DNA of 42,680 nucleotides from Eubacterium sp. (GTDB taxonomy: Bacteria > Bacillota > Clostridia > Lachnospirales > Lachnospiraceae). Location of the stretch: assembly GCA_017514785.1 (NCBI GenBank), contig JAFWIO010000068.1:1-42680 (forward strand), written 5' to 3'. Position 1 is the first letter of the stretch. Each line of letters begins with the position of its first letter. Both the position numbers and the translations under genes were made by a program. The notes beneath the pieces are model-generated. The model did not search any database. It was not told the DNA's origin and saw nothing but the letters and a program-made list of their open reading frames with translations. Of the stretch, positions 2,225 to 37,050 are shown one piece after another.

Positions 2225-2252
2225 TTGACCTTTTATTATTATTAGTTATAAT
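2225..2252 (+). promoter_or_regulatory. sigma-A promoter driving hairpin RNA A
   Basis: TTGACC at 2225-2230 and TATAAT at 2247-2252 are separated by 16 bases. The predicted start at about 2259-2261 falls on the first base of the hairpin that follows. Nothing protein-coding lies downstream on this strand, so the promoter appears dedicated to the RNA. Confidence 0.75.
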
Positions 2253-2259
2253 TAAGTGC

Positions 2260-2325
2260 AGAAAGAAGTGGGTCTGTACCATCTGACCTTAGTGTCTCAA
2301 GGTGGGTTACTCGCTTCTTTCTTTA
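2260..2325 (+). ncRNA. hairpin small RNA A (new family, copy 1)
   Basis: A perfect 8-bp outer stem pairs GAAAGAAG (2261-2268) with CTTCTTTC (2314-2321). It can be extended by TGGG pairing with CTCG. An inner ACCTT/AAGGT hairpin lies between, and a U-rich tail follows. The 5' and 3' cores, TGGGTCTGTACC and GGGTTACTCG, recur in copies B and C. The predicted RNA is about 60-65 nt and runs convergently into the stop codon of the 175-aa gene at 2323, touching its last bases. The opposite strand reads IKKEASNPP, a relic of the C-terminal motif of that protein family. Function unknown; antisense or protein-binding RNA is inference. Confidence 0.6.
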
Positions 2326-2850
2326 TGCAAAGAAATCCACACTATCTTCTTTTTTTATATTAACCAAATCATACAAAAACAGTTTCCCACTTATACTTTT
2401 TCTAACTACTAGAGTTCCAATATAAATATTGTATCTCTCAATAATCATTTCATTACTCATAACCGGTAATGCAAAACGCGTCAAATATCTATGCCATCCT
2501 TTTCCTGCTTTCTTTCTGTTTTTCTCTTTATAATTGGCACTTTCACTTGTTTTTCTCGAAATTTTTATTAATTCCCTAATCCCCTGCGAAGCATTAGCCT
2601 TTGCTTTTCGATATGGTCCTCTTGTTCTGTAAGTATCTTGCGAACTTGTGTACTCATCTGGAAAGTCAGAAGCAATATGTATTGATTCCTTTGTTTCATC
2701 AACTTCTATTATTTCTCCTAAATATTTTTTTAAATACTTTTCTACTTTTTTCCATGGAACACTTCTTTTCCCATAAAAAATTATTTCATTAATTACTACA
2801 ACTTTTCTGCCTTTTTTATCTAATGCAAATCTAACTTTAGATTCTTTCAT
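2323..2850 (-). CDS. stand-alone phage/mobile-element nuclease-like (polyvalent-protein type) domain protein, 175 aa
   Basis: The 175 residues follow a layout I associate with nuclease-like domains at the ends of phage and mobile-element polyvalent proteins (LPD/PBECR type). There is an early VVI segment, a helical WKKVEKYLKKYLG, a basic central KAKANASQGIREL region, a W-x-R-Y-L-T-RF segment, and a C-terminal RY-x-I-Y-I-G strand followed by LYDLVNIKKEDS. It is basic and has no membrane segment or signal. The family call rests on recalled pattern, so the RNase idea is weak. It has a good GGAGGG ribosome binding site. Unusually, it is bracketed by two hairpin RNAs on the other strand and interrupts the usual neighbourhood downstream of comEC. 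The 37-aa ORF at 37017-37130 shares its last ~23 residues. Confidence 0.7.
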   Translation of the reverse strand: MKESKVRFALDKKGRKVVVINEIIFYGKRSVPWKKVEKYLKKYLGEIIEVDETKESIHIASDFPDEYTSSQDTYRTRGPYRKAKANASQGIRELIKISRKTSESANYKEKNRKKAGKGWHRYLTRFALPVMSNEMIIERYNIYIGTLVVRKSISGKLFLYDLVNIKKEDSVDFFA

Positions 2851-2866
2851 ACTTTTATCCCTCCTA

Positions 2867-2895
2867 TTGACTTACATCCTATCTGAAACTATAAT
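2867..2895 (+). promoter_or_regulatory. sigma-A promoter driving hairpin RNA B
   Basis: TTGACT at 2867-2872 and TATAAT at 2890-2895 are separated by 17 bases. The predicted start at about 2902 coincides with the base of hairpin B. The -35 box lies only 2 bases from the Shine-Dalgarno sequence of the divergent 175-aa gene, so polymerase binding here could also affect that gene. Confidence 0.78.
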
Positions 2896-2901
2896 CTTTT
2901 T

Positions 2902-2977
2902 GAAAGAAGGACGTTGGTTTTTTACCACCCGACATTCTAGTCACAGGGTGGGGTGCTCGCGTCCTTCTTTTATTGTT
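2902..2977 (+). ncRNA. hairpin small RNA B (new family, copy 2)
   Basis: An 11-bp perfect outer stem pairs 2903-2913 (AAAGAAGGACG) with 2960-2970. Inside it CCACCC (2925-2930) pairs with GGGTGG (2946-2951), capped by a GAC/GTC-containing loop. The tail TTTTATTGTTTTT resembles a terminator. The cores TTGGTTTTTTACC and GGTGCTCG match copies A and C, while the stem sequences differ but stay complementary. It runs toward the comEC stop at 2980 on the other strand. If the 175-aa gene is transcribed by read-through from comEC, RNA B is complementary to its 5' leader. Confidence 0.6.
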
Positions 2978-2979
2978 TT

Positions 2980-5448
2980 TCAACTAGAATCTTTAATATA
3001 GCTATCAATTATCAAATCTTTTTTATTGGTAATAATACTTATCCCACCACTTTCGTCTGTTCGGATAATCTTACAGCCAATACTATCCAATCGATGTATA
3101 ACCTCCGGCGTAGGATGGCCGTATCTATTTCCTTTTCCTGATGAAAGTATTCCTATCTTTGGCATTATTGCCCTTAGGAAATCTTCAGACGATGAATATT
3201 TAGATCCGTGATGTCCTACTTTTAAAACTGTGTACTGTTTCAAATCTTTAATATATGTTTCCTGCGTCGAAGTTAGATCTCCCGTCAGCAGCACTGAGTA
3301 TTTTCCATACTCAACACCCAAAACAATCGAATAATCATTCAAGTCATCCGAAGATGTATCCGACGTAGGATGTAGACATTTGAGCTTTGTGTCACCAAAC
3401 TCTAAAAAATCGCCTTTCTTAATAGAGTGAACTTCTATCCCTCTATCTATAGCAACCTCGCGAATCGACATTAAGTGTTCATCATATTCTTTCATATACG
3501 GAAGCACTATGTTCTTTATCTTTATTCCGCTCATATCGCTATTTAGAATTTCGATAACACCCGAGATGTGGTCTAAGTCCCCATGTGTTAGAAACCAATA
3601 ATCTATAGTTGAATTGCACTGAGACTTTAGGTATGAAATGATTCGATATTTTCCAACTTCTTTTACCGTTGTACTTCCACCATCCACCATTATGTTTGTC
3701 CCGTCACTGCACTTGATATGGATTCCATCTCCCTGCCCGACATCAAGAAAAATTGTCTCTAGTCCGGGCGAGAAAATGTTTAAATGAACTATTACTGGTT
3801 TTAAATACAACATACTTTCGAGAACGACAAAGAGCACGGCCACAACCATCCTGCGTCTTTTTGTCATTAAGAGTTCTGCTTTCTTTTCCTTTTTTATTTG
3901 CCTTAAATCTTTTCCACTCTTCTCGAATGTTTTTTTCGACAGTTCTCTAACCTTTTTTCTATGAGAAAAGAAAAACAAAACTCCAAAAAGCAATATATAG
4001 TACATAATAATTATGTAAACTGATGGTTTTCCTACTACTACACTCGAAAATGGAAGCATACTAATCAACTTTGGAAGACCAGTATACAAATCCAAAATCA
4101 AACATCCAGGAATAATCAATATAGATCCTAGCCACTTGGCAAACAGCCCACCTACTATTCCTAGCACTCCTGATACTATAACTATTCCCATAAGAGGAAC
4201 TACTATCAAGTTTAGAATGAACGAATAAGTCGGTAGCTGATAATAGTAATATGCAATGATTGGCGCCATAAACACACTGATATTTAAACTAAACAATACA
4301 GCATTAATAGTCTTATGTTTAATAATTATGTAAACTAGATGCCTTTTCTCATTTTCACTGGCATTCTTGTCTAATTCTCTAGCACTGAATTTATTTTTTA
4401 AACCTAGTAAATAAAAAACTTTTGGCCAGACAATTAGTATGCCAATGATTGCTGCAAATGACATTTGAAATCCAGAATTTAAAATGACAAACGGATTCCA
4501 TAAAAGCAAAAAGATTCCAGCTAAACTTATTGAAGTTACTTTATCGTTCCATCTGCCTAACATCTGTCCTAAGACCAAACATAAAAACATTACAACTGCA
4601 CGGATGGTCGATATTCCCATCCCAGACATTATGGCAAAAGCTACCACAGCAAAAAGAGAAACTGAACCAGACACTACATATCCAAACTTTCGTCTTAAAA
4701 GTTTGAAAAAGAACAATCCAATAAAACTGATATGCAATCCACTTATCGCAAGCAAATGTGCTATACCAGATACTGAATAAAGTTCCTTCGTGGTATCGTC
4801 CAATTCCGCCTTATCCCCGATCAATATGGCAGAATAAACCCCCGCCTTATCTTTTGAACAAATATCATTAAGGATCTCTTTTATCTGAACCCGTAGGTCA
4901 TACAAACCCTGCCGCAGCAAATCATACGAGTCATCTTTCACCTTGGCAGAATCGCCATAAATCATCCCATAGATTCCAAGTGACATATTGTGTTCTCTCA
5001 TATCAAAGTTTCCAGGATTCCTCGCCTGTTCAAAATGCTTAAACTCCCCTTCCACTTTCACCACATTTCCTACTTTTACATCTGGCTCGTCAAAGAAATA
5101 GACAATTACTTCACCCAAATAGTTGTCACCATTCCAAGTATCATCTAAGTAGAGAGAATACGAATTCTTTGTCGGGGAAATCTTTTCGACATTTCCATAT
5201 ACACTAATATCCCCTTCTTCATAATTCCAAGCCCTGTCCCTTACTTTTACTTCGTTTGAAGTAATCAAAAAGCCTATTAGGGCACCAAAAAAAATCATCG
5301 CTACAAACTTCCACTGTGTTTTAGCGATGATTTTTATAATTATGGACGCGGCAACAATGGGTAATAACACCCATGCTCCCCCGTAAATCATGGCAACTAT
5401 CTCTCCAAGTAACAAGGCCAAAAACAAATTTAAAATTGGCCGTTTGAT
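2980..5448 (-). CDS. comEC: ComEC/Rec2 DNA-uptake channel protein
   Basis: ComEC is the membrane channel that carries single-stranded DNA into the cytoplasm during transformation. The protein has N-terminal membrane helices and an OB-like region, a central Competence domain with about eight helices (LLAISGLHISFIGLFFF is its hallmark), and a C-terminal metallo-beta-lactamase-like domain with THGDLDHISG (the H-x-D-x-D-H motif) and VGHHGSKYS. Total length is about 820 residues, slightly long for the family. Start choice is difficult: the first ordinary codon in frame is TTG at 5427 with no ribosome binding site. AAAGAGGTG at 5454-5462 instead points to ATC at 5448 (giving M-K-R-P-I-L, the usual ComEC beginning) or ATT at 5451. 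I use 5448. It is the last gene of the comEA operon. Confidence 0.92.
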   Translation of the reverse strand: MKRPILNLFLALLLGEIVAMIYGGAWVLLPIVAASIIIKIIAKTQWKFVAMIFFGALIGFLITSNEVKVRDRAWNYEEGDISVYGNVEKISPTKNSYSLYLDDTWNGDNYLGEVIVYFFDEPDVKVGNVVKVEGEFKHFEQARNPGNFDMREHNMSLGIYGMIYGDSAKVKDDSYDLLRQGLYDLRVQIKEILNDICSKDKAGVYSAILIGDKAELDDTTKELYSVSGIAHLLAISGLHISFIGLFFFKLLRRKFGYVVSGSVSLFAVVAFAIMSGMGISTIRAVVMFLCLVLGQMLGRWNDKVTSISLAGIFLLLWNPFVILNSGFQMSFAAIIGILIVWPKVFYLLGLKNKFSARELDKNASENEKRHLVYIIIKHKTINAVLFSLNISVFMAPIIAYYYYQLPTYSFILNLIVVPLMGIVIVSGVLGIVGGLFAKWLGSILIIPGCLILDLYTGLPKLISMLPFSSVVVGKPSVYIIIMYYILLFGVLFFFSHRKKVRELSKKTFEKSGKDLRQIKKEKKAELLMTKRRRMVVAVLFVVLESMLYLKPVIVHLNIFSPGLETIFLDVGQGDGIHIKCSDGTNIMVDGGSTTVKEVGKYRIISYLKSQCNSTIDYWFLTHGDLDHISGVIEILNSDMSGIKIKNIVLPYMKEYDEHLMSIREVAIDRGIEVHSIKKGDFLEFGDTKLKCLHPTSDTSSDDLNDYSIVLGVEYGKYSVLLTGDLTSTQETYIKDLKQYTVLKVGHHGSKYSSSEDFLRAIMPKIGILSSGKGNRYGHPTPEVIHRLDSIGCKIIRTDESGGISIITNKKDLIIDSYIKDSS

Positions 5449-5464
5449 AATTGCACCTCTTTCT

Positions 5465-6388
5465 TTATTCTGTTTCTACTATATCCAAATTTCTGATTAG
5501 TGGTTCACTGAGCGAAATCTTCTTGTGGTACATAATGTCGGAATCTCTATTCACCGTAATCTGCACTTCGTGAATATCATTTAGTTCGCAAAGCGAGTTT
5601 ACAATTGAGTAAATACAAACTTCATCTAGTACACCACTTCGCTCTCTCAAGAATGAATCGTCAAAGTCCACATAACAAATATTATTTGACGTGGAAACAC
5701 TGCGCAATTTAACATTCTTATTTAGAGTAGCTGTGTATCCGTCTTTGTCTGGACCGCTAATCAATTTTCTTACGATAAACTCTTCTTTTGACTTATTTCC
5801 GTAGTTTGCATTTTTAAGCTCGTACTTCTTTAATTTGGCCCCCTCATCATTTCCAAAGTAAAGCAAGAAATCGGCTCTTGCAAACTGGTCGTCGCCACCG
5901 CGTAGCATTGATACAAAGCTGGACGCATCCATGATGCCCATTCTCGAACCTGCCACCTTCTCGTAAGGTTTATCTTCCACAGTAAATTCTATACCATCTA
6001 CCGCATTTATCTGTATTAATGTGAGAACAACTGCCGCTCTACACATTACTTCTCTCTGGTTTTCAAGTTGATTGTACTCACTGTTAAAATCAACTGTAAT
6101 TATTCCGTTTTCTAGTTTAAATCCATTGACAATTACGTTTTCTGGAACTGCCGCCTTATCACCTTTGTCGTCACCGTCTTTTGACAAAGCATCCAAAAGG
6201 TCTGTTATCTGGCTGTTGGCATTATCAGATTTAACCCTATACTCTTCTTTGTTAAGATTATCCCCAGCCTTGTTGATAAAATAGACAAACATACCAGACG
6301 TCTGCTCTTTTTCAGCTTCGCTGCAGCCGAAAAGAGAAATCGTCAAAGAAAGTATCATTATTAAACTTAAAATTCTTCTAATCTTCAT
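5465..6388 (-). CDS. GerMN-domain lipoprotein
   Basis: The 307-residue protein begins with a lipoprotein signal (LSLTISLFGC, lipidated Cys22) and then has two GerMN-like repeats, roughly residues 50-165 and 185-300. Each contains a G-I-I-T-V-D-F or N-x-C-Y-V-D-F strand and a helix with VVLTLIQI or CIYSIVNSL. GerM of Bacillus has the same two-repeat layout and acts at the cell wall. The family often sits next to two-component systems. Its start overlaps the end of the histidine kinase, with the GAAGAG of the kinase's last codons serving as ribosome binding site, so the two are translationally coupled. A role as extracytoplasmic partner of the kinase is an inference from position. Confidence 0.85.
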   Translation of the reverse strand: MKIRRILSLIMILSLTISLFGCSEAEKEQTSGMFVYFINKAGDNLNKEEYRVKSDNANSQITDLLDALSKDGDDKGDKAAVPENVIVNGFKLENGIITVDFNSEYNQLENQREVMCRAAVVLTLIQINAVDGIEFTVEDKPYEKVAGSRMGIMDASSFVSMLRGGDDQFARADFLLYFGNDEGAKLKKYELKNANYGNKSKEEFIVRKLISGPDKDGYTATLNKNVKLRSVSTSNNICYVDFDDSFLRERSGVLDEVCIYSIVNSLCELNDIHEVQITVNRDSDIMYHKKISLSEPLIRNLDIVETE

Positions 6389-6390
6389 AA

Positions 6391-7854
6391 TTACTCTTCA
6401 ATATATTTTAGAGGTATACGCACTGTAAATGTAGTGCCCTCTTCCTCTTTACTGTGAACACCTATAGAACCGTGGTGTCTCTTAACAATCTCCTTAGTAA
6501 TAGCAAGTCCAAGTCCGGAACCGCCAGTCTCTCTTGCTCTAGCCTTATCCACACGGAAGAAGCGTTCGAACACTCTGTCTTGATCTTCTTCTGGAATACC
6601 AATACCAGTATCTTGTACTTTGAAGTAGAAATACTGATGGTCGGCATTAAGGCTGACTGTAACTGTTCCATCTACCTGGTTATATTTGATAGCATTCTCA
6701 ACTAAATTTGTAACAACTCTGGCAAACTTAAGCTCGTCCACATCTGCAATGATAGGACGAAAACTCTCGTATACTACCTCGATATTTTTCTCCTCAGCAA
6801 TAGGCTTAACAGTCTTAAGCACTGACTCTAAAACATCGTTAATATTTACTTGAGAAATGTTAATCTCATTTTCTACATTTTCTGTATTCACAAGTTCGAG
6901 AAGGTCGTTAATAATCTGGCTCTCACGCTCAATCTCATTTGAGATATCAACCAAGAACTCTTGATACATTTCTTCAGGCGCACCCTCTGCACCTACCAAA
7001 GAATCCGCAAGCACCTTCATCGAAGTAATAGGCGTCTTTAATTCGTGAGACACGTTCGATACAAAGTCATCTCGTTTCTTCTGCTCTGCATAGAAGTTAT
7101 CTATCATTGTATTGAAATCACTAAGAATCTGTTTAACCTCAGTGTAATCCTTAATCTCATCCAAGTTTTCCACACCTCTTCTGTGCTTAACATCTTTGAT
7201 AATCTCGCCCACTCGCTTGATTGGTCTTGCAAAGAATTTGGCGCAGATGAATGCTACTACCAACGCAAAGATAGCGCCCAAGGCAAAGGCAATCCATACT
7301 ACTCGTCTAACATCGCTTCTATAGTTTGAAATATTTGCTGTGGAATAGTTAGTACAAAGAACACCTACAGTCTTCTTTATAGAGCCCTCATCCACTGTGG
7401 TAATAGTAGCAACTAGTGGAATTGAAAACTCGATATACTCTAGGTCTTTGTTTTCTTCCATCACATCTTCGCCCTTCAAAGCCTTGAAGACGTTTTTAGA
7501 AATACTAGTGTTTCCAATATCTTCACTCTTTGAGTCTTCACGAATAATACATGCCGTGTCAATTATCTGGATACGCGCATCAAACTCGTTCGACAAAAGG
7601 TTAATCTGTGCATTCACAGCCTCGGATTCCTTTTTATCCAAGTAGCCGCTGCTAATAATATTATTTTTAAGCATTACATTGTTAGACTTGTACTCCTCTA
7701 GGCGGTTGTTGTAATACTTAGAAGTTGACACATTAAGAAATATTGTGCCTATCACAAGAATAGGCACAATAATAACAATCAATGTAACAACGAATATCGA
7801 AAATTCGAAGCTCTTTATGTAATTTAAAATTAAATCAAGCTTTTTATTTTTCAT
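6391..7854 (-). CDS. sensor histidine kinase (HAMP, HisKA, HATPase_c)
   Basis: This 487-residue kinase has a first membrane helix near residues 18-42, an extracytoplasmic sensor domain to about 182, a second helix near 184-207, and HAMP to about 260. The dimerisation/phosphoacceptor helix carries SHELKTPITS with His270. The ATP-binding domain shows the N box (NLVENAIKY), the G1 box (DTGIGIPEEDQ), the F box (VFERFFRVD) and the G2 box (GGSGLGLAI). It phosphorylates the regulator encoded immediately upstream (stop at 7859, start at 7854). The layout resembles WalK/PhoR-type kinases but lacks a PAS domain. The signal is unknown. Confidence 0.95.
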   Translation of the reverse strand: MKNKKLDLILNYIKSFEFSIFVVTLIVIIVPILVIGTIFLNVSTSKYYNNRLEEYKSNNVMLKNNIISSGYLDKKESEAVNAQINLLSNEFDARIQIIDTACIIREDSKSEDIGNTSISKNVFKALKGEDVMEENKDLEYIEFSIPLVATITTVDEGSIKKTVGVLCTNYSTANISNYRSDVRRVVWIAFALGAIFALVVAFICAKFFARPIKRVGEIIKDVKHRRGVENLDEIKDYTEVKQILSDFNTMIDNFYAEQKKRDDFVSNVSHELKTPITSMKVLADSLVGAEGAPEEMYQEFLVDISNEIERESQIINDLLELVNTENVENEINISQVNINDVLESVLKTVKPIAEEKNIEVVYESFRPIIADVDELKFARVVTNLVENAIKYNQVDGTVTVSLNADHQYFYFKVQDTGIGIPEEDQDRVFERFFRVDKARARETGGSGLGLAITKEIVKRHHGSIGVHSKEEEGTTFTVRIPLKYIEE

Positions 7855-7858
7855 CTAA

Positions 7859-8542
7859 TTATCCTTGAAAATAATATCCCATTCCCCACTTAGTCTGAAT
7901 GTATGTAGGTTTGGCTGGATTCTCCTCAATCTTTTCTCTTAGTCTTCTAATGTTAACATCTACTGTTCTAGCATCACCTGGATAGTGTGAGCCCCAAATG
8001 ATATTTAAAAGATCTTCTCTTGAGTAAAGCTTTCCGGGATGCTCCGCTAGAAGTTTTAAGATATCAAACTCCTTAACTGTAAGTCTAATCTCTTCATCTT
8101 TTATATAAAGTCTCTTTGCTTCTACTTCTAATCTTAGATCGCCCGCTTCTATTACTTTGGCGGTCTCTTCCACTTGAACCTTCTTTTTGTTACGTCTAGT
8201 GATAGCCTTGATTCTAGCTTTAACCTCTAATATATTGAATGGCTTTGTGATGTAGTCATCTGCACCGTACTCTAGACCAAGGATTTTGTCCATGTCTTCG
8301 CCCTTTGCAGTAAGCATCACAATTGGCACATCTGAAAACTCTCGCACTTGCTGACAAACTTCGTAACCGTCAAAGACAGGCAGCATCAAATCAAGCAAAA
8401 TGATATCGTACTCATTTTCCTTTGCTAGGTCTACAGCTTCCTGGCCATCGTAAGCACAGTCCACTTCGTAACCTTCCTGCTCAAGATTAAACTTAAGTCC
8501 TTTCACGATTAATTTTTCATCATCAACTACTAAAGCTCTCAT
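7859..8542 (-). CDS. OmpR/PhoB-family response regulator
   Basis: The 227-residue regulator has a receiver domain (residues 1-120) with the acidic pair Asp7/Asp8, phosphoacceptor Asp51 in LLDLMLPVFDG, and the LTAKGED switch region. It ends in a winged-helix DNA-binding domain with LTVKEFDILKLLAEHPG and VDVNIRRLREKIE typical of OmpR members. AGGAG precedes the ATG. It is 9 bases downstream of comEA, with its kinase next. That suggests a feed-forward arrangement in which the system sits inside an operon for DNA-uptake proteins; whether it controls competence is not shown. Confidence 0.95.
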   Translation of the reverse strand: MRALVVDDEKLIVKGLKFNLEQEGYEVDCAYDGQEAVDLAKENEYDIILLDLMLPVFDGYEVCQQVREFSDVPIVMLTAKGEDMDKILGLEYGADDYITKPFNILEVKARIKAITRRNKKKVQVEETAKVIEAGDLRLEVEAKRLYIKDEEIRLTVKEFDILKLLAEHPGKLYSREDLLNIIWGSHYPGDARTVDVNIRRLREKIEENPAKPTYIQTKWGMGYYFQG

Positions 8543-8551
8543 ATTTTTCTC

Positions 8552-9145
8552 CTAATCTACGCAAATCTGTGATTTGATATTATTAAATGTGGCATCTCCT
8601 ATTCCGGAAACATTTTTGATATCTTCCGGTTTAGAAAAATTCCCATTTTGCGTGCGATATTCCACTATTGCTTTCGCTCTAACTTCGCCAATCCCCGACA
8701 AAGTCTGAAGTTCCTCAGCAGTGGCTGTATTTATATTTATTAAACCTGATTGGTTTGATCCATCTTGGTTTTCATTAGATGAACTGCCAGCTGATTTCTT
8801 TTTCTTAAGTTTCTTATATTCCTTTTTTGAAATCACCCTGATTTGCTGTCCGTCTTTTACGGTATCAGCTAGGTTTAAATAATCGGTCTGTGCATTTTTT
8901 GTCATGCCACCGGCTTTCTCAATGACATTGTAAAGCCTCGTACCTTCTGGAACTTTCACAATTCCTGGAGCGTTCACCTCGCCCACTACGTGTACAAAAA
9001 TATCTCCGCTACTTTTCGTCTCCTCCAAAGAAGATTTCGGCTTTGTATCGTCTAGAGATATCTTTTTAGACTTACTCCCACAGCCCATAAATACTAGGGA
9101 TATCGCAATCCCAATAATTAATAATAAAATATTCTTTTTTAACAT
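8552..9145 (-). CDS. comEA: ComEA-type DNA-binding lipoprotein (SLBB + helix-hairpin-helix)
   Basis: ComEA is the surface DNA receptor for transformation. This 197-residue version has a lipobox (SLVFMGC, Cys22) instead of the usual plain membrane anchor, an SLBB domain at about 48-106 (HVVGEVNAPGIVKVPEG), a lysine/serine linker, and two helix-hairpin-helix motifs at 135-197 (NINTATAEELQTLSGIGEVR; IKNVSGIGDATF). AAGGAG sits before the ATG. It is the promoter-proximal gene of the operon that ends with comEC. The lipoprotein anchor is a modest variation. No other competence genes are in the window. Confidence 0.92.
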   Translation of the reverse strand: MLKKNILLLIIGIAISLVFMGCGSKSKKISLDDTKPKSSLEETKSSGDIFVHVVGEVNAPGIVKVPEGTRLYNVIEKAGGMTKNAQTDYLNLADTVKDGQQIRVISKKEYKKLKKKKSAGSSSNENQDGSNQSGLININTATAEELQTLSGIGEVRAKAIVEYRTQNGNFSKPEDIKNVSGIGDATFNNIKSQICVD

Positions 9146-9183
9146 TCTTACTCCTTTCGGAGTTCCCTGCGAATGCTATTTTC

Positions 9184-9227
9184 ATTGTACTCTAAAAAAT
9201 ATTACTATTCAATAACAAAATTGACAA
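9184..9227 (-). promoter_or_regulatory. candidate sigma-A promoter(s) of the comEA operon
   Basis: Two overlapping matches read on the minus strand: TTGAAT (9207-9212) with 17 bases to TACAAT (9184-9189), and TTGTCA (9222-9227) with 17 bases to TAATAT (9199-9204). Either would start transcription shortly ahead of comEA. I cannot tell which is used. Confidence 0.5.
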
Positions 9228-9261
9228 TTTTCTAACAAATATTAATTATTGTTTTTTACAA

Positions 9262-9293
9262 CAAAAAAGAGCAGTTGCGCCTTGCAACTGCCC
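9262..9293 (-). terminator. intrinsic terminator after the Na+/Pi cotransporter
   Basis: On the minus strand an 8-bp GC-rich stem (GCAGTTGC/GCAACTGC, 9284-9291 with 9271-9278) and a five-base loop are followed by CTCTTTTTT. It lies 15 bases past the cotransporter stop and isolates it from the comEA promoter. Confidence 0.85.
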
Positions 9294-9307
9294 TTGTCAA
9301 TACTTAT

Positions 9308-10981: not shown

Positions 10982-11024
10982 TCGGTTTCTCCTCTATAAA
11001 TCTAATAAACGCGAAATCTATTAA

Positions 11025-11054
11025 ATTTTATCATATTGGCAATTATTTTTTCAA
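11025..11054 (-). promoter_or_regulatory. candidate promoter of the Na+/Pi cotransporter gene
   Basis: TTGAAA (11049-11054) and TAAAAT (11025-11030) on the minus strand are separated by 18 bases, about 40 bases before the start codon. I see no obvious Pho box. Confidence 0.5.
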
Positions 11055-11063
11055 TATTTTTTT

Positions 11064-11127
11064 ACAAAAACAAAAATAATGTTGAACTCACTAAAAATCG
11101 TTCGTTCAAACATTATTTTTGTTTTTT
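11064..11127. terminator. bidirectional terminator hairpin with conserved 19-nt loop (copy 1)
   Basis: A long A/T-rich stem (arms 11064-11085 and 11106-11127, one bulged base) holds the loop CTCACTAAAAATCGTTCGT at 11087-11105. Copies 2 and 3 have the loop CTCACTAACAATCGTTCGT with unrelated stems. A- and T-runs on both sides suit termination in both directions. On the minus strand it follows the small ORF that overlaps dinB. Confidence 0.7.
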
Positions 11128-28152: not shown

Positions 28153-28155
28153 AAC

Positions 28156-28190
28156 AAAAAAAGAACTAGCTTAATGCTAGTTCTTTTTTT
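28156..28190. terminator. bidirectional terminator between YfhO and PrsA-like genes
   Basis: A 15-bp perfect stem (28156-28170 with 28176-28190) contains GAACTAGC/GCTAGTTC, with A- and T-runs of seven on each side. It serves both convergent genes. Confidence 0.9.
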
Positions 28191-28200
28191 ATGTACTTTT

Positions 28201-29226: not shown

Positions 29227-29239
29227 ATTTTACTCTCCA

Positions 29240-30016
29240 CTACATTCTTAAAATGTCTTCTATTATCATATTCACACTCTCTGCAATATGCTGAGCAGAA
29301 TCTCTTACTTGAGAATTGCTGTCCATCATAGCATATGCAAAGTATGAATGATCAAACATATCAATATCACTGAAGCCCGCGCCAAAGACCACTGTATCCT
29401 CTTCTGAAATATCAAAAAGATGTTGTACAACGGCTAGAGCCATTCCCTTAGATACATATTGCCCTGTTACAAACAACTGTGTTTCGTCTGTGGCCGAAAT
29501 ATTCGCTCTATTTCCCCACTTTTCTATAAAGTTACTAAAGTCTGCTTCAGTAAAACCTTTATCCTTAAATATGGTGATTTTAGTGATATCTCCACTCATT
29601 TCCTGAGTGCTGCTTACAAACTCTGGAATAATACCATTCTTCTTTAAGCGTCTTTCAAATGTGGCATTCGATTTTAAAAGAACTGCATTTCTCTCGCCAG
29701 ATAGCATGAGTTTGTAACTTCTATCTTCTCCAAGTTCATCTGTCACACCTAGACAAACAAGCCTATCAATTGGAGTTTTACTAATTACTTTGCCTTGGTA
29801 GACTACCACTCCACCATCGTTACAAATGTAAATAATATCATTCGAAAGTCTTCCAAAAATATCCTTTACTGAATCATAATTTTGTGCTGTAGCTACTGCA
29901 AATTTAATGTCTTTTTCTTTTAGGCGCACAATAAGATCGAGGATATCCTCTCCTACTTGTCTTTTATCATCTAACTCTATTATATTTTCCAAACTACTTA
30001 CAACTAATCTGATCAT
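29240..30016 (-). CDS. degenerate Cof-type HAD-superfamily protein (probable pseudoenzyme)
   Basis: The 258-residue protein has the Cof-type HAD layout with a C2 cap, but key residues are changed. Motif I, normally D-L-D-G-T, reads VVSSLENII, so the nucleophile is Ser8 and the second Asp is Glu10. Motif II is ATAQ. Motif III keeps Lys190 in SKGMAL. Motif IV reads FGAGFSDIDM instead of G-D-G-x-N-D, losing one of the Mg-binding Asp (Ala213) and keeping Asp217. Phosphatase activity is thus unlikely. The start is ATG 30016 with GGGG six bases upstream, rather than the TTG at 30028. It sits ahead of the PrsA-like gene. Confidence 0.82.
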   Translation of the reverse strand: MIRLVVSSLENIIELDDKRQVGEDILDLIVRLKEKDIKFAVATAQNYDSVKDIFGRLSNDIIYICNDGGVVVYQGKVISKTPIDRLVCLGVTDELGEDRSYKLMLSGERNAVLLKSNATFERRLKKNGIIPEFVSSTQEMSGDITKITIFKDKGFTEADFSNFIEKWGNRANISATDETQLFVTGQYVSKGMALAVVQHLFDISEEDTVVFGAGFSDIDMFDHSYFAYAMMDSNSQVRDSAQHIAESVNMIIEDILRM

Positions 30017-30070
30017 CGTAATCCCCAAAAAATATACTCTATATGTTATATCTTATATCGAATAATAAGT

Positions 30071-32431
30071 CTATTTCTTTCTTGTAAAAGTTTTAACTTT
30101 TGAATATTTTCCGTAGTAATGTGTTCCTTTAACTGTAGTGAACACAATAATTTTGTAATAGTATTTCTTTCCTTTTTTTAGTTTCTTGTCATAGAATGTT
30201 AATTTCTTACCAGTTCTAATAGTTGCTACTCTTGCAAAGCCTTTGTTTTTGCTAACACTCCTTACTACATTGTAGCCTGTAGCTCCAGCCACTGCTTTTA
30301 GATTAAATGTTACGCCTTTGCCTTTGGCTTTCATTTTCAAAATCTTACTCTTGCCAGGAACTGGCTGTACCACTACTACATTTGAAGTAGGGCCTTTGTG
30401 GGCTTTGCCGCTGACAGTTCTAAACGCAACTACAGTGTATGTATACTTAACACCTGTCTCAAGGTTTGTATCTTTAAGTGATGTAACTGTGCCTGGCACA
30501 GCTTTCACTAATTTCAAAGGTCCAACCTGTGGTTTTCTATACACTCTGTACTGTGTAATGCCGTACTGACTAGTCCAAGAAACTGATGCTGCGTTATATC
30601 CTGTAGCCTTAGCGCTAAGTTTAGACTTGCCAGGGGTTGCATTTGTAACTTTAACTGTACACTTAGAACTAAATCCTGACTTAGGCTTACAAGTTATAAC
30701 AGCAGTTCCTTGAGCCTTAGCTGTTATAATACCCTTTTTAGAAACTGATGCTACCTTGCTATTGCTAGAAGTAAACTTCTTGACTGAATTCTTCTTTTTA
30801 GAAGGAAGCAACTTGGTTTTAAGTTTCTTTGTCTGACCAGTGTAAAGCGAAACATAATTAGGAGTAACTGAAACTCCACTCGTTACAACACTAATCTTAA
30901 GTCCGCTGATAGAGCCTGTGGCTGAGATAGCGTAAACTGTAGTGCTACCTTTCTTCTTTCCTGTCACATAGCCCTTTGAATCCACTGTACAAATAGCTGG
31001 ATTGTTCGATCTATAGTAGACAGTTCCAGATTTAGAAATCTTCACTGGAAGTTTGGTTTTTACTTTCTTTGTAATGTATTTTGCTGTAGTTATTGTGACG
31101 TAAGATGCCGTCAAATAACCTTTGTATAGTTTTCCTTTATATTTGGCGTGAGCATATAGCCAGTAAGGATTTCTTAATAGTCTTACTCCATAACCAGCAT
31201 TACTAATCTTTCCATGATATACAGTAACCTTTGTACCCTTAGGCAAAGTTACCAAGCCTTTGTATCCTGAGCCAGGACCTTTTCTAATCATAATAGAATC
31301 TGAAGTCTTGGCAGATTTTCCTACAGCACCTAAAGTTACGCTCTGGCTCTTTGCAGGCATACTTGTGTAAACAGGAATGATAAACTTTTTAGTAAGTCCG
31401 GCTATTCCCATTGAATTGTATGCGTTTGCAGTAAGGTCAGACTCTGCTGCTGCTCCGTATACATTTGTCATATATTGATGTGCATACAAACCATAGCTAG
31501 ATGATTTGTTTACATTGAATCTTTCAAAGTAAATTGTGTACTGTCCACAGTTGATATATTTATCGCCAATATATTTTGCTCCACCATTGATAGACTTCAT
31601 AGGTGTAGTCCATGGACGTGAATATGTATTTCCACTCTTCGCCCAACTTAATCCACTGGCAATTGGGTTTGCACCTGTAAATGCGCCGATATTATAGAAG
31701 TTGTAGATTCCTTTGTAGGAGCCGTATGAACCGGAAACACTTCCGCTTGCGCCCATACCAGCATACTTAGAATTCTTTGAACCACCGATTTCCTGTCTAA
31801 TCTTTGAAGCAATATAGTATGCATTTACATTAGCGGCCTTAGCTGCTGCTAAAATCTGCGCCGAGTACTTGGTGCTAGTCTTTGTATATTTTCCTTTGCT
31901 AGTCAAATAGCAAATGTTTGTCTTATACATAAATGTGCCCTTAAGCACTGCTTCCACTCCAGCTTGGGTTTGAGTGGATGAATCAAACGCTAGTGATTCA
32001 AACATATATATAGACGAAGTATTTAGGAAGTTTCTTGGATCCATAAAGTATGCTGTCGCATTCTTGTTTGCTGATACCCAAGTACCTCCATCTTTTGCTA
32101 CGTATCTCTTTGTCTGTGGGAAGTAATCTCCCTTGGCGTTTGATTTAAAGAATTTACTAAAGTAATTTTCAATCAAACTCATATTGTTTTTGCTCTCTTT
32201 TGAAACAGCTGTTGCAAACTTGATACCCGTCTTATATGGAACAAACTTCCAATTTGGGTATTTCTTGTGCAAAGCTCTTAGAGATGATTTATAACTATCA
32301 GGGAAACCCTTAATACTAGTTTCAAATGCGTCAGCCTTAACTTCTGTTTTTGGCACAAAGTTAACACTGGCTACCACTAGCGCCATAGCCAAAATCATAA
32401 CCAATATTCTTTTTACTGTTTTGTTTTGCAT
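30071..32431 (-). CDS. secreted multidomain cell-wall glucosaminidase
   Basis: A 786-residue secreted protein. It has a signal peptide (about residues 1-34), then a region of about 300 residues matching GH73-type beta-N-acetylglucosaminidases (FMDPRNFLNTSSIYMFESL; YIASKIRQEIGGS; YNFYNIGAF), an SH3-like segment (IMIRKGPGSGYKGLVTLPKG), two Ig-like BIG_2-type repeats (VDSKGYVTGKKKGSTTVYAI; SKKGIITAKAQGTAVITCKP), and two fibronectin-type-III-like repeats. It should cut peptidoglycan glycan strands, with the C-terminal part binding wall or surface. The start is ATG 32431, with GAGG eight bases upstream. It is very lysine-rich. It follows the topoisomerase A gene by 42 bases. Confidence 0.88.
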   Translation of the reverse strand: MQNKTVKRILVMILAMALVVASVNFVPKTEVKADAFETSIKGFPDSYKSSLRALHKKYPNWKFVPYKTGIKFATAVSKESKNNMSLIENYFSKFFKSNAKGDYFPQTKRYVAKDGGTWVSANKNATAYFMDPRNFLNTSSIYMFESLAFDSSTQTQAGVEAVLKGTFMYKTNICYLTSKGKYTKTSTKYSAQILAAAKAANVNAYYIASKIRQEIGGSKNSKYAGMGASGSVSGSYGSYKGIYNFYNIGAFTGANPIASGLSWAKSGNTYSRPWTTPMKSINGGAKYIGDKYINCGQYTIYFERFNVNKSSSYGLYAHQYMTNVYGAAAESDLTANAYNSMGIAGLTKKFIIPVYTSMPAKSQSVTLGAVGKSAKTSDSIMIRKGPGSGYKGLVTLPKGTKVTVYHGKISNAGYGVRLLRNPYWLYAHAKYKGKLYKGYLTASYVTITTAKYITKKVKTKLPVKISKSGTVYYRSNNPAICTVDSKGYVTGKKKGSTTVYAISATGSISGLKISVVTSGVSVTPNYVSLYTGQTKKLKTKLLPSKKKNSVKKFTSSNSKVASVSKKGIITAKAQGTAVITCKPKSGFSSKCTVKVTNATPGKSKLSAKATGYNAASVSWTSQYGITQYRVYRKPQVGPLKLVKAVPGTVTSLKDTNLETGVKYTYTVVAFRTVSGKAHKGPTSNVVVVQPVPGKSKILKMKAKGKGVTFNLKAVAGATGYNVVRSVSKNKGFARVATIRTGKKLTFYDKKLKKGKKYYYKIIVFTTVKGTHYYGKYSKVKTFTRKK

Positions 32432-32473
32432 AATCAAAACCTCTAAAATAGTTTTAGCAAAAACAACTAGTAT

Positions 32474-34861
32474 TTATTTCTTACGTACCTTTACGCCCTT
32501 TGTCGCACGCTTACCAATCTTAAGTTTGCGTAACTCAACATTTCTGCCATTTGCCTTAACAGTAATGTCATCGCCTGTATCTAATACATATACGTTAGAT
32601 ACCCAGTCACCATCGTTTAGACGGATACCGATAACTCCCTTTGTACCCTTCTTCTGCTCAGGAACCTGGCTGATAGGGAATCTTAAGAAGATGCCGCCGT
32701 CTGTCTGGATAACAAGAATCTCTCTAGTATACTGAAGTTCACCCTCTTGTGGCTTATCGCCTTCGATAGGTAGTTCAGTCTGCTCAAAGTCTAGAGATTC
32801 CATACCTTCTTCATCACCAGATCCACCAGTGATAGCAACTGACTCTTCGTCGTCGTAAACTTTCTCCGAAATTCTAGTCATGTTTACAGAAGCTAGTTCG
32901 TCGCCATCTGCCAACTTGGTCGCTGCCATAGTTTTTCTGTTAGTTTCAAACTCGCTTCCATCTACTAACTTTATAAGCCCTAATTTTGTTGTAAATAAGA
33001 GTTTTTTGTCTTTAATGTCATCATAAGTGAACAATGCCACAATATTTTCGCCAGCACTTGAGTAGTTTCCAAGGTTATCGATAGGTGTTCCTTTCTCACG
33101 AACCTTCTTCAAAGGAATACTCTGTACCTTCACCTGATGAACATTTCCAGTGTTTGTGAAAATCAATACACTGTCTGTATTCATACATCTGTAAATATAT
33201 TTGTACTCTTTATTTACAGATTCAATATTTCTATCATAAGCTGCAGGCTCTAGTAATTTGGCGTAGCCAAATTTGTCCTGTACAAAGACAACCTCTTGCT
33301 CTACAAATTCGTTTTCGTTAAATACAGCTTCCTTACCATCTTCTATAGATGTCTTTCTCTCTTCGCCGTACTCTTCTTTGATAGCCTTAAGGTCAGTCTT
33401 GATAGCCTTAGTCATTGAGCGCTTGTTCTCTAGGATATCTTCGTACTCAGCTATCTTTTCAGTTAGCTCTTCGTACTCCTTCTCCAAAGCCTTAATCTCA
33501 AGACCAATCAACTTAGCAAGTCTTAAATCAAGGATAGCTGTAGCCTGACGATCTGTGAAATTCAAGTTTCCTGCAAGAGCTGGTGATTCTTTCTTCTTAA
33601 ACTTGATTCCCTCAGTGATACCCTTAGTCAAGCAGTCCTTAACCTGCTTCTGGCTCTCACTACCTCTGATTATCTCGATAATCAAATCTATAATATTAGT
33701 AGCCTTAATAAGACCTTCTTTTATTTCCTTCTGCTCCAAAGCTTTCTCAAGCAATGTCTTGTACTTTCTAGTAGCTAGTTCGTACTGATATTCCACGTAG
33801 AACTTAAGAAGTTTCTTGATACCCATAACTTCTGGTCTACCATCAGCGATAGCTAGCATATTTACACCAAAAGTATCTTCTAGCTTTGTCTTCTTATAAA
33901 GCATGTTGATAATCTTTTCTACATCTGCGCCCTTCTTTAGTTCAAGAACGATACGCACACCATTTTTGTCGGATGCGTTTGAGATATCAACTATATCTGT
34001 AGTTACTTTGTTTTCAACTAAACTAACTACGTCTGATAGGAACTTTCCAATTCCTGCACCAATCATTGTATAAGGGATTTCAGTAATGACTAACTTGTCA
34101 TGTCCTCTGCTCTTTCCCTTTTCAAACTCGACTTTTCCACGAAGTTTAAGTTTACCAGTACCTGTTTCGTATATCTCTTTTAGTTCAGACTTATTTGCAA
34201 CAATACCGCCTGTTGGGAAGTCTGGACCAGGCATAATCTCTAGCAAATCTTCCACGCTGATACTGTTCTTTGACATATAAGCCATAACTGCATCTATTAC
34301 TTCGCCCAAGTTGTGAGTAGGGATAGATGTAGCCATACCAACAGCGATACCCTCGGCACCATTTACTAACAAGTTAGGTACACGCACAGGTAATACTTCT
34401 GGCTCTTTCTCGGTCTCGTCAAAGTTAGGTACAAAGTCTACTATGTCTTTGTCGAGGTCCGCCAAATAAACGTCCTCTGAAAACTTCTGAAGGCGAGCCT
34501 CTGTGTAACGCATAGCAGCTGCTCCGTCACCCTCTATAGATCCGAAGTTTCCATGGCCATCTACCAATGCTTTTCCCTTTTTAAACTCCTGCGCCAAAAC
34601 TACAAGAGTTTCATAAATTGAGCTATCACCGTGTGGGTGATATTTACCCATCGTATCACCAACTATACGAGCTGATTTACGGTGTGGCTTATCATGGTTT
34701 AGGTGAAGCTGGTCCATAGCGTAAAGCACACGCCTCTGAACCGGTTTCAAACCATCTCTAGCATCAGGCAATGCTCTAGCACAGATAACGCTCATCGCGT
34801 AATCTATGTAACTCTTTTGCATTACCTCCGAATATTCCGTTTTAATTATTTGTTCTGACAT
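32474..34861 (-). CDS. type II topoisomerase subunit A (ParC/GyrA family)
   Basis: The 795-residue subunit has the breakage-reunion domain with catalytic Tyr119 (GDGAAAMRYTEARL) and the quinolone region YHPHGDSSIYE, with Ser80 and Glu84 as in drug-susceptible ParC numbering. A helical coiled region follows, then a C-terminal beta-propeller. The GyrA-box Q-R-R-G-G-K-G is not seen; weaker repeats (REKGTP, KKGTKG, KRATKG) take its place, so it is more likely a topoisomerase IV or a second gyrase-type enzyme than the main gyrase. An acidic insert (about residues 655-710) interrupts the propeller. It is transcribed directly after its B subunit. Confidence 0.9.
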   Translation of the reverse strand: MSEQIIKTEYSEVMQKSYIDYAMSVICARALPDARDGLKPVQRRVLYAMDQLHLNHDKPHRKSARIVGDTMGKYHPHGDSSIYETLVVLAQEFKKGKALVDGHGNFGSIEGDGAAAMRYTEARLQKFSEDVYLADLDKDIVDFVPNFDETEKEPEVLPVRVPNLLVNGAEGIAVGMATSIPTHNLGEVIDAVMAYMSKNSISVEDLLEIMPGPDFPTGGIVANKSELKEIYETGTGKLKLRGKVEFEKGKSRGHDKLVITEIPYTMIGAGIGKFLSDVVSLVENKVTTDIVDISNASDKNGVRIVLELKKGADVEKIINMLYKKTKLEDTFGVNMLAIADGRPEVMGIKKLLKFYVEYQYELATRKYKTLLEKALEQKEIKEGLIKATNIIDLIIEIIRGSESQKQVKDCLTKGITEGIKFKKKESPALAGNLNFTDRQATAILDLRLAKLIGLEIKALEKEYEELTEKIAEYEDILENKRSMTKAIKTDLKAIKEEYGEERKTSIEDGKEAVFNENEFVEQEVVFVQDKFGYAKLLEPAAYDRNIESVNKEYKYIYRCMNTDSVLIFTNTGNVHQVKVQSIPLKKVREKGTPIDNLGNYSSAGENIVALFTYDDIKDKKLLFTTKLGLIKLVDGSEFETNRKTMAATKLADGDELASVNMTRISEKVYDDEESVAITGGSGDEEGMESLDFEQTELPIEGDKPQEGELQYTREILVIQTDGGIFLRFPISQVPEQKKGTKGVIGIRLNDGDWVSNVYVLDTGDDITVKANGRNVELRKLKIGKRATKGVKVRKK

Positions 34862-34887
34862 TTATATTCTCCTAATTCCTTAGTGTT

Positions 34888-36816
34888 TTATGCATCAATC
34901 TCTGCATCTCTAGCATTCTTATAAATGAAGTCACGTCTTGGCGCTACTTCTGTACCCATAAGCATGTTTGTAACACGCGATGCTAGTTTAGCGTCTTCTA
35001 TTTCTACTTGCTTTAAGATTCTAGTCTTTGGATCAAGCGTAGTTTCCCAAAGTTGCTCTGGGTCCATCTCTCCAAGACCTTTGTATCTTTGAAGTGTAAA
35101 TCCTTTATGATTCTTACGATACTTCTCAAGCGCTTTGTCATCATATAAGTATTCACCCTCACCCTTTTTAGGAACAACCTTGTATAGAGGAGGTGTTGCG
35201 ATATACACATGACCACCTGTAATTAAGTCCGGCATAAATCTGTAGAAGAATGTAAGTAGCAATGTATCGATATGCGCACCGTCCACATCGGCATCAGTCA
35301 TAAGAATAATCTTATCGAACTTGAGCTTATCAATATCAAAGTCGTTACCGTATCCTTCGGAGAAGCCGCATCCAAACGCATTAATCATTGTTTTAATTTC
35401 GGCATTTGCCAAAACCTTATCCATAGATGCTTTTTCAACGTTTAGGATTTTACCTCTGATAGGCATAATAGCCTGAGTCTTTCTATCTCTAGCAGTCTTA
35501 GCTGAACCTCCGGCAGAGTCACCCTCTACTATGAAGATTTCGCACTCTTCTGCTTTTCTGCTCTCGCAGTTTGCTAACTTACCATTGCTATCAATTGAGA
35601 ACTTGCTCTTTGTAAGCATGTTTGTCTTTGATCTAGCTTCTGCTTTTCTAATCTTTGCAGATTTTTCAGCACACTCGATTACCTTCTTCAAAGTCTCAAG
35701 GTTCTTGTCAAAGTAAAGAGTTAGCTGCTCGTTTGCAATAGTCTTTGTAGCCTTCTCTGCATCAGGGTTATCAAGCTTTGTCTTTGTCTGTCCTTCAAAT
35801 CTAGGATCTGGATGCTTGATAGCAACTATGGCTGTAAGACCATTACGAACATCGGCACCTGTAAAGTTTGCATCTTTGTCCTTAAGATTTCCTAACTCTC
35901 TTGCATACTGGTTAATAGTCTGTGTGAGAGTTGATTTGAAACCTGTAATATGTGCTCCACCTTCTTGTGTAAAGATATTGTTACAGAAACCTAGGATATT
36001 CTCTGTAAATTCGTTTACGTATTGGAAAGCAATCTCTAACTCGATACCTTCTATCTCGCGTTTGAAATAAACGATATCTGTCACTGCTTCTTTTTCGTTA
36101 TCTAGGTCTTTGATGAAGGCTTTAATGCCGTCTGGTTCGTGATACTCAACAGTCTCTTCCTCGCCAGCTCTCTTGTTTTCATAGTGAATAGTAAGACCTG
36201 GGTTTAGGTATGCTGTCTCGTGAAGTCTACTTCTAACTGCATCAGCCTTAAAGTATGTCTTTTCGAAAATCTCTGGATCAGGAAGGAATGTAACCTTTGT
36301 ACCTGTATCATTCTTTCTACATGTACCAACTTCCTTAACCTTTGATTTAACCTTGCCCTGTTTGTACTTCTGGTTCCACACAACGCCATCTCTCTTAACC
36401 CAAACTTCCATCCATTCAGAAAGCGCGTTAACAACAGATGAACCTACACCGTGTAGACCACCAGAAATCTTATAATTGCCATCGCCAAACTTACCACCGG
36501 CATGAAGTGTTGTAAAAACAACCTCAAGGGCGGACTTCTTAGCCTGCTTATTCATATCTACAGGAATTCCACGACCGTTATCTTCGATAGTAGCTGTTCC
36601 ATCTTTTTCTAGAGTTACCCAAATCTCGTCACAATATCCTGCCAAGTGCTCATCTACTGAGTTGTCCATAATCTCGTATATTAAGTGGTTAAGACCTTTA
36701 GTTCCAACACTACCAATATACATTCCAGGACGCTGACGAACTGGCTCTAGACCTTTCAAGACCGAAATACTATCGCCATCGTAAGATTTTCCTTTTCCGT
36801 CATATTTACTTGCCAT
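34888..36816 (-). CDS. type II topoisomerase subunit B (ParE/GyrB family)
   Basis: The 642-residue ATPase subunit has the GHKL domain (YEIMDNSVDEHLAGYCDEI; IEDNGRGIPVDMN; GGLHGVGSSVVNALS), the transducer lysine region, and the TOPRIM domain with EGDSAGGSAK and DADVDGAHI, ending with RYKGLGEMDPEQLWETT. The start is ATG 36816 with GGAG six bases upstream; an upstream ATG four codons earlier is part of that ribosome binding site. It is the first gene of a two-gene operon with the A subunit and has a consensus promoter. Whether it is ParE or a second GyrB cannot be decided without the rest of the genome. Confidence 0.9.
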   Translation of the reverse strand: MASKYDGKGKSYDGDSISVLKGLEPVRQRPGMYIGSVGTKGLNHLIYEIMDNSVDEHLAGYCDEIWVTLEKDGTATIEDNGRGIPVDMNKQAKKSALEVVFTTLHAGGKFGDGNYKISGGLHGVGSSVVNALSEWMEVWVKRDGVVWNQKYKQGKVKSKVKEVGTCRKNDTGTKVTFLPDPEIFEKTYFKADAVRSRLHETAYLNPGLTIHYENKRAGEEETVEYHEPDGIKAFIKDLDNEKEAVTDIVYFKREIEGIELEIAFQYVNEFTENILGFCNNIFTQEGGAHITGFKSTLTQTINQYARELGNLKDKDANFTGADVRNGLTAIVAIKHPDPRFEGQTKTKLDNPDAEKATKTIANEQLTLYFDKNLETLKKVIECAEKSAKIRKAEARSKTNMLTKSKFSIDSNGKLANCESRKAEECEIFIVEGDSAGGSAKTARDRKTQAIMPIRGKILNVEKASMDKVLANAEIKTMINAFGCGFSEGYGNDFDIDKLKFDKIILMTDADVDGAHIDTLLLTFFYRFMPDLITGGHVYIATPPLYKVVPKKGEGEYLYDDKALEKYRKNHKGFTLQRYKGLGEMDPEQLWETTLDPKTRILKQVEIEDAKLASRVTNMLMGTEVAPRRDFIYKNARDAEIDA

Positions 36817-36878
36817 TTTACTCTCCATTTCTATTGATTTTGGGAAAATATCCCATTTTTAGCCATTTTAACTACTAT

Positions 36879-36907
36879 ATTATACAATATGTTGTGTGTT
36901 ATGGCAA
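36879..36907 (-). promoter_or_regulatory. promoter of the topoisomerase operon
   Basis: TTGCCA (36902-36907) and TATAAT (36879-36884) on the minus strand are separated by 17 bases, about 60 bases before the subunit B start. Confidence 0.75.
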
Positions 36908-36909
36908 GG

Positions 36910-36933
36910 AAAACCCGTATATAATGGGGTTTT
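36910..36933. terminator. weak hairpin, possible terminator after the 37-aa ORF
   Basis: AAAACCC (36910-36916) pairs with GGGTTTT (36927-36933) around a ten-base loop. On either strand it ends in a short T-run. It would lie downstream of the 37-aa ORF and just ahead of the topoisomerase promoter. Confidence 0.4.
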
Positions 36934-36953
36934 TAAGGTTTTTTCACTATTTA

Positions 36954-36982
36954 TTGACAAAACTATTAGTAAGTAGTATATT
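36954..36982 (+). promoter_or_regulatory. sigma-A promoter driving hairpin RNA C
   Basis: TTGACA (36954-36959) and TATATT (36977-36982) are separated by 17 bases. The start predicted at about 36989 is the first base of the hairpin. Confidence 0.8.
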
Positions 36983-36988
36983 TTCATT

Positions 36989-37050
36989 AAAGAAATGGGT
37001 TTTTACTGGGTAAGGCTTATGCCTGACAAGACTTGCTCGTTTCTTTTTTT
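36989..37050 (+). ncRNA. hairpin small RNA C (new family, copy 3)
   Basis: AAAGAAA (36989-36995) pairs with TTTCTTT (37040-37046), extended by TGGG with CTCG. Inside is an AGGC/GCCT hairpin with a four-base loop, and a seven-T run ends it. The cores TGGGTTTTTACT and CTTGCTCG match copies A and B. It is convergent with, and antisense to, the last 34 bases of the 37-aa ORF, including the stop codon. With its own promoter and T-run, it is the clearest free-standing RNA of the three. Confidence 0.7.

Follow-up and report, generated by a model that had tools for sequence, protein, structure and literature searches.

A gene and a converging hairpin RNA in a Eubacterium contig

The 42,680-nucleotide contig JAFWIO010000068.1 from Eubacterium sp. 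(assembly GCA_017514785.1), analysed over its full length and referred to here as the window, carries three plus-strand hairpins, each behind a promoter-like sequence, and the opposite-strand gene for a 175-aa protein, P0001 (Table 1). An earlier note, made from the sequence alone, had described the three hairpins as promoter-driven RNAs of no recognised class and had proposed them as an undescribed system. The hairpins are present where that note placed them, and each folds better than all 200 of its 200 dinucleotide shuffles, with z-scores of -3.9, -6.0 and -3.5 for hairpins 1, 2 and 3 on the plus strand; the minus-strand folds are weaker (z of -2.0, -4.1 and -1.6). They do represent a real RNA family, but taking the hairpins by themselves as the system missed the protein gene that partners them, its convergence with the RNA, the mobility and the RNA-only relics, and it is these that carry the functional reading. 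Hairpins 1 and 3 are not free-standing, as both overlap the 3' ends of convergent genes belonging to one protein family. The short open reading frame (ORF) met by hairpin 3 reads, by eye, as the start and end of the P0001 family with the middle deleted. On a different contig, the same genome has a fourth hairpin copy. A second P0001 homologue (51% identical) is likewise encoded on another contig, and its 3' end too is faced by a converging promoter, hairpin and U-run. Locus L032 matches the genome's own second cassette, together with its flanks, at 95-98%.

Table 1. Coordinates in the window of the hairpin RNAs, their promoters and the associated genes
Feature	Position	Strand	Remarks
P0001, 175 aa, predicted toxin-like partner	2323..2850	-	stop codon inside the 3' end of hairpin RNA 1
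37-aa ORF, gene remnant converged on by hairpin RNA 3	37017..37130	-	C-terminal match, E 3e-7
Promoter, hairpin RNA 1	2225..2252	+	TTGACC-16-TATAAT
Hairpin RNA 1	2260..2326	+	model match 2262-2320; converges on gene 2323-2850
Promoter, hairpin RNA 2	2867..2895	+	TTGACT-17-TATAAT
Hairpin RNA 2	2902..2973	+	model match 2907-2966; upstream of gene 2323-2850, without a gene of its own
Promoter, hairpin RNA 3	36954..36982	+	TTGACA-17-TATATT
Hairpin RNA 3	36989..37050	+	model match 36989-37046; between gyrB-like and trpS genes
Inserted unit, approximate	2213..2977	.	between the 208-aa ORF 1498-2124 and comEC; borders by eye

The hairpins belong to a covarying RNA family

A covariance model, R1, was built from 15 copies and run over 299 genomes of the same bacterial family, a search of the kind the earlier note had suggested for finding further copies; the RNA is found in 76 of them, the window's own included. 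The surroundings of matches without an existing locus were fetched and rescanned, and duplicates and weaker opposite-strand calls were removed by hand, leaving 112 places found without reference to the protein. Hairpins 1 and 2 are part of R1, so their matches are by construction, but hairpin 3, which was left out of model building, is recovered at E 3.2e-6. The outer stem of the fold has about 11 pairs, conserved G-U pairs among them; inward of it come an internal loop rich in U, a second stem of 4 pairs, an asymmetric loop and an apical stem that varies.

The observation that the outer stems differ in sequence while staying paired holds across the family, where covariation is strong. In alignment A8, which has 100 distinct rows, 14 of 19 pairs show changes on both sides and the paired cells amount to 93.9%, against 48-57% in slid controls; in alignment A7 (84 distinct rows, mostly from protein-anchored loci) the corresponding values are 13 of 19 and 92.2%, against 51-59%, both alignments being fitted to the structure of R1, which favours that structure. 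They were used in place of a MAFFT alignment (A5) in which the outer stem is misregistered and the RNAalifold consensus holds 3 pairs only. The strand is clear as well: mean fold energy is -19.0 kcal/mol on the RNA strand and -11.2 kcal/mol on the opposite one, with the RNA strand the better in 105 of the 112, and the U-rich tail claimed for the window copies follows the hairpin in 105 of 111 family copies.

The promoters need more care. All three in the window are as claimed, spacers included (16, 17 and 17), and each matches the consensus at 11 of 12 positions. The earlier contention that such promoter-hairpin matches exceed chance does not stand on the three window copies alone, which are no proof of promoters, because promoter-like sites in two stretches occur near their chance count (5 against 4.2 +/- 1.9 shuffled, and 5 against 2.0 +/- 1.4). 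It is the whole family that establishes them: 83 of 111 copies score 10-12 of 12 directly upstream, compared with 1 of 111 shuffled segments. These same features make it scarcely credible that the hairpin is an ordinary bidirectional terminator or an interspersed repeat of no specific function. Its terminal U-tract does resemble that of an intrinsic terminator, but a U-tract after the hairpin on the gene strand is rare (6 of 111), and conservation extends to the inner sequence, the promoter and the partner gene.

No Rfam family matches within the window at gathering score, in keeping with the first impression of no known RNA class. A permissive Rfam search of eight loci gives six sub-threshold matches to unrelated families, and the abiF motif RNA (RF03085) has no match in the window or in those eight loci. 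A small peptide encoded within the RNA was considered and set aside: an ATG stands at the P1 site in 61 of 112 copies, 49 of them open through the hairpin, so that a peptide is conceivable in those copies, but it is not conserved.

Some variation in form may be recorded here. Four short variants (L017, L113, L174 and L298) lack, by eye, the apical stem and keep the outer stem and a short inner one, which may represent the minimal core. Extra hairpin RNAs in the same orientation, in tandem or neighbouring, occur beside one gene at L090:4487-4653 and L182:4913-5282, a pattern suggestive of cassette loss around the RNA.

The RNA is constantly paired with one gene and often outlasts it

A profile of the protein run over the same 299 genomes finds 74 positive. 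With an intact gene defined as one aligned from residue 15 or earlier through residue 168 or later with zero stops, 55 of 55 intact copies, and 8 of 8 single-stop copies besides, adjoin an opposite-strand RNA match at the 3' end. A second protein-led set of 117 3' ends (110 distinct) shows by script a hairpin abutting a U-run at 115, as compared with 11 of 117 shuffled segments; the two script misses, one of them the window's own gene, show the hairpin by eye. A separate script applied to fetched loci, most of which had been fetched via their RNA, finds the RNA at 60 of 60 distinct intact genes (59 by script and the window's own by eye).

Starting from the RNA gives a different picture. Among the 112 RNAs, a full-length gene lies next to 61 and a C-terminal fragment next to 23, while the remaining 28 have no gene beside them (61, 21 and 30 by script, two having been moved by hand to the fragments since their start lay one base outside the limit). 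At the level of genomes, 14 of the 76 with the RNA have no protein match at E 1e-5 when the lists are compared by hand; setting aside two with sub-threshold fragments (G052, G124), one cut by a contig end (G106) and two whose RNAs have poor promoters (G282, G206) leaves nine. In the other direction, 20 regions were fetched around gene matches where the strict search had missed the RNA or a recheck was wanted, and 13 have the RNA by model. The other seven are a gene cut by the contig end (G184), one with its C-terminal end replaced (G286), one with its middle lost (G121), and four fragments without a C-terminus (G171, G224, G030 and G288). In the searched set, then, the RNA is lost only together with gene damage.

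In this set the RNA often outlasts the gene and no intact gene is seen to lack the RNA, which is the direction of loss expected of a toxin and its antidote. Zero RNA-first losses in 31 one-sided losses have a rough chance of 0.004 under a simple neutral model that takes the RNA as 100 of 625 bp. This direction also bears on the possibility that the RNA, rather than inhibiting the protein, serves a ribonucleoprotein effector (one of phage defence, say) as its cofactor, guide or sensor. One RNA constantly paired with one protein would suit such a role, as would the homology to phage-type protein domains described below; a cofactor role, though, gives no reason why the RNA should occur without the protein in 28 of 112 cases and the intact protein without the RNA in 0 of 55, and we hold it to be quite improbable.

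The orphan RNAs are mostly not decaying. Over the 98 of the 112 that were mapped, paired cells make up 92.6% in gene-less RNAs, 93.8% where a full gene adjoins and 95.8% where a fragment does; a promoter scoring at least 10 of 12 precedes 18 of 28 gene-less, 15 of 22 fragment and 50 of 61 full-gene RNAs, and the U-tail is present in 22 of 28, 22 of 22 and 61 of 61, respectively. Similarity among the RNAs follows similarity among the proteins over 78 loci (Mantel r 0.58, with 0 of 2000 permutations as high), for which joint inheritance alone could suffice.

Gene and RNA move as a unit

The unit inserted in the window comprises hairpin 1, the gene and hairpin 2. A DNA search of 23 congeners shows the same site empty in four of them: G583 keeps both flanks joined, while in G586, G598 and G594 the comEC flank comes with that same short leader. 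At other loci, two cassettes may share 91-96% identity across about 660 bp and cease to match at both borders (for example L031/L043, L041/L072, L045/L072), and members with a longer N-terminus form longer units. Judged from these borders, gene and RNA move as one cassette of about 660 bp.

IS200/IS605 elements carry subterminal hairpins, and integron attC cassettes carry R and L boxes and diverse cargo genes. A hairpin acting as a DNA site for recombination or transposition in either manner, its promoter being incidental, would account for cassettes that move as units, for the direct hairpin copies to either side of the gene, both in the window and in L046, and for the existence of tandem and orphan hairpins. 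What makes it very improbable is that the cargo observed beside the hairpin is all of one gene family, and that wobble pairs conserved on one strand, a near-constant distance to the promoter and a U-tail point to a transcript. Terminal repeats, too, are not obvious at the cassette borders inspected by eye.

A protein family shared with polyvalent proteins

By sequence comparison, the protein belongs to no named family above noise within the collections searched. Pfam and PHROGs searches with 57 members give scattered weak matches only; Pfam with P0001 and four relatives gives nothing past a helix-turn-helix in L005 and noise; NCBIfam and PADLOC, searched with two relatives only, give zero matches. 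A profile search of the PDB has its best match at E 0.09 (0.7 for one polyvalent homologue). The ToxN, CptN and TenpN toxin families are unmatched in Pfam (57 members), NCBIfam (two members) and, by profile, the PDB.

The family is nonetheless well defined. Invariant or nearly invariant positions in 57 aligned members include W33, E66, S70, G78, AKAN (83-86), K110-H111, GW (118-119), Y122, P129, YD (160-161) and KKE (166-168). P0001 itself is hydrophilic, with a grand average of hydropathy (GRAVY) of -0.64 over its 175 aa. Its relatives occur in 21 of 100 genomes of the same family, its own included, and a P0001-family protein is encoded by 515 of 525 candidate stretches from the GTDB contig collection, by their titles mostly of Lachnospiraceae and related Clostridia, of which 80 were kept. 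Relatives are also present in six viral contigs and one phage record; a plasmid search gave zero.

A search across 291 genomes of the class shows that four other genomes encode the same domain within longer open frames, of 1080-2805 aa, and its homology to the cassette protein is strong (hhalign 97.8%, E 1e-12). These proteins resemble the polyvalent type known from phages and mobile elements (PMC5512222): L230 has PBECR3, and L231 has LPD23 and a DUF6782 metallopeptidase, all above cut-off; L229 matches ART and DUF6782 more weakly, and for L228 there is no significant match. The cassette protein is homologous to a domain inside such proteins, and differs in standing alone with an RNA partner. 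A search for the hairpin at the four polyvalent loci gave none.

As a side observation, an Xre-like or helix-turn-helix-like N-terminal extension is recognised by motif in 9 of 92 distinct full-length proteins (12 of 100 before removal of duplicates). Its bearers include L005, L012, L023 and L025, the first confirmed by Pfam HTH_3. Two proteins of the window's own genome with weak LPD3 matches (L244:1246-1998 and L248:1089-1718) are alike by eye and have no significant match to the cassette profile; they are other genes.

A probable toxin-antitoxin-like cassette

From the fold and strand of the RNA, its promoter, its constant pairing with the gene, the mobility of the unit and the persistence of the RNA, as read from the sequences, we infer that the element is probably a toxin-antitoxin-like cassette of about 660 bp. 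One strand would encode a soluble protein of some 175 aa that is presumed to be toxic in its free form. From the other strand, a strong promoter would drive a 60-75-nt RNA, made of a three-part stem with two internal loops and a U-tail, toward the 3' end of the gene, and this RNA would bind and neutralise the protein, as the RNA antitoxins of type III systems and of AbiF do. Toxicity is suggested by the pattern of loss and by the company that the homologous domain keeps in polyvalent proteins. The best reading of the architecture is an arrangement like that of Gram-positive type I systems combined with an antitoxin RNA seemingly built like that of type III.

Each comparison has its limits. In type III systems (ToxIN, CptIN, TenpIN), the RNA antitoxin is a tandem repeat that precedes the toxin in a shared operon, the two being separated by a terminator (PMC5086642), and one of these systems, CptIN, has been recorded in the related gut host Eubacterium rectale (PMC4627078). 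The cassette would share with them a structured RNA antitoxin and a protein toxin, but its RNA normally consists of one hairpin, which has its own promoter and lies at the gene's 3' end on the opposite strand (tandem copies are seen at few loci, such as L090), and its protein is unrelated in the sequence searches run. RCd22 of Clostridioides difficile (PMC12373285) is a short RNA with promoter and terminator that neutralises the toxic AbiF by direct binding. The cassette RNA is likewise short, with promoter and terminator, and would likewise neutralise its partner; RCd22, however, lies upstream in the same direction where the cassette RNA converges, and the RNA motif (abiF motif RNA, RF03085) and the Abi_2 protein family are different ones.

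The toxins of Gram-positive type I systems are small hydrophobic peptides. In genomic arrangement, these systems come closest: in txpA/RatA and bsrG/SR4 the RNA overlaps the 3' end of a convergent toxin gene, several are found on mobile elements, and such overlap of transcripts at the 3' end is described as the rule among them (PMC4147584). The cassette is mobile, RNA and gene overlap at their 3' ends, and the stop codon lies within or beside the RNA. The RNA might then act as a cis-antisense transcript, base-pairing with the convergent mRNA at its 3' end so as to bring about decay or a block of translation, without binding the protein. We consider this unlikely. Antisense action does not call for a conserved compact fold, whereas changes on both sides of a pair are common here; the gene-less RNAs keep the fold, and in nine genomes the RNA is well formed although the protein search matches nothing at E 1e-5; and the protein, hydrophilic and of 175 aa, is no small hydrophobic peptide. 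Pairing with the gene's 5' region, examined at the start region only, is no better for the cognate gene (-28.5) than for other pairs (-28.2), and the idea of an antisense to the ribosome site was dropped for lack of signal. Complementarity at the 3' end is automatic from the overlap. Direct binding is the mechanism we favour, with some reserve, over antisense, by analogy with RCd22 for AbiF: the RNA is compact, covaries and is kept without the gene.

Several observations weigh against a toxin-antitoxin-like cassette. The gene is the larger mutational target, so some asymmetry of loss is expected anyway. Some of the 28 gene-less RNAs lie near contig ends (L123, L144 and L150, for example), 10 of the 28 have a promoter score below 10, and a structure-based search finds only RNAs that keep their fold, which inflates the pairing of the orphans. 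On the side of the protein, no named nuclease domain is found in it. The ribonucleases of the BECR fold have a His-bearing helix, then 4-5 strands, and a C-terminal S/T (PMC5512222), and an active-site serine/threonine of PBECR type is not seen, by eye, in the polyvalent homologues. Membership in LPD3 (PF18798) was considered and rejected, 6 of 57 members matching at E up to 1, the best at 0.0045 and below the curated cut-off, with hhalign at 0.3-0.5%. His111 is present in 55 of the 57 members, P0001 and one other carrying Asn, and the window's own copy may therefore be divergent or inactive. Finally, among 110 PADLOC families of neighbouring genes the commonest occurs in 5, without enrichment of defence genes as judged by eye and with no computed background.

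A more speculative extension, to which we give a low probability, is that the cassette represents a new class of RNA-neutralised toxin whose protein is derived from, or the source of, a phage polyvalent effector domain, and that the solitary RNAs confer heritable immunity against incoming cassettes or phage homologues, as an RNA counterpart of orphan immunity genes. The gene pair is apparently undescribed: no description of the RNA-protein pair was found in the open-access literature searched, where candidate lists in supplements, such as those of PMC8040213, may hold the motif. Both RNA and protein are without a name in the collections searched, yet the RNA is present in about a quarter of the genomes examined (76 of 299) of Lachnospiraceae, a major gut family. 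If confirmed, the cassette would add a toxin-antitoxin architecture (convergent, with its own promoter and a single covarying hairpin) and a new toxin family tied to phage effector domains, and the RNA-only loci would be a natural set for studying how antitoxin memory is kept.

Range and neighbourhood

In the 291 genomes of the class, the RNA turns up in five that belong to this family (the window's own is one of them), and a single weak match lies outside the family; full-length stand-alone genes are found in this family only (two genomes). Solitary RNAs borne by phages were sought in viral contigs with two pattern scans. The first gave six contigs, two already known with the gene and four that have neither gene nor model match and look like chance; the second gave none. 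No conserved neighbourhood emerges from 123 neighbour ORFs (of the 143 nearest, length excluded 4 and another 16 were set aside manually), none of their 133 Pfam families occurring in more than 6. The nearest upstream ORF is oriented with the cassette gene in 65 of 72 loci (L030-L108), and it would appear that insertion or survival is biased in orientation.

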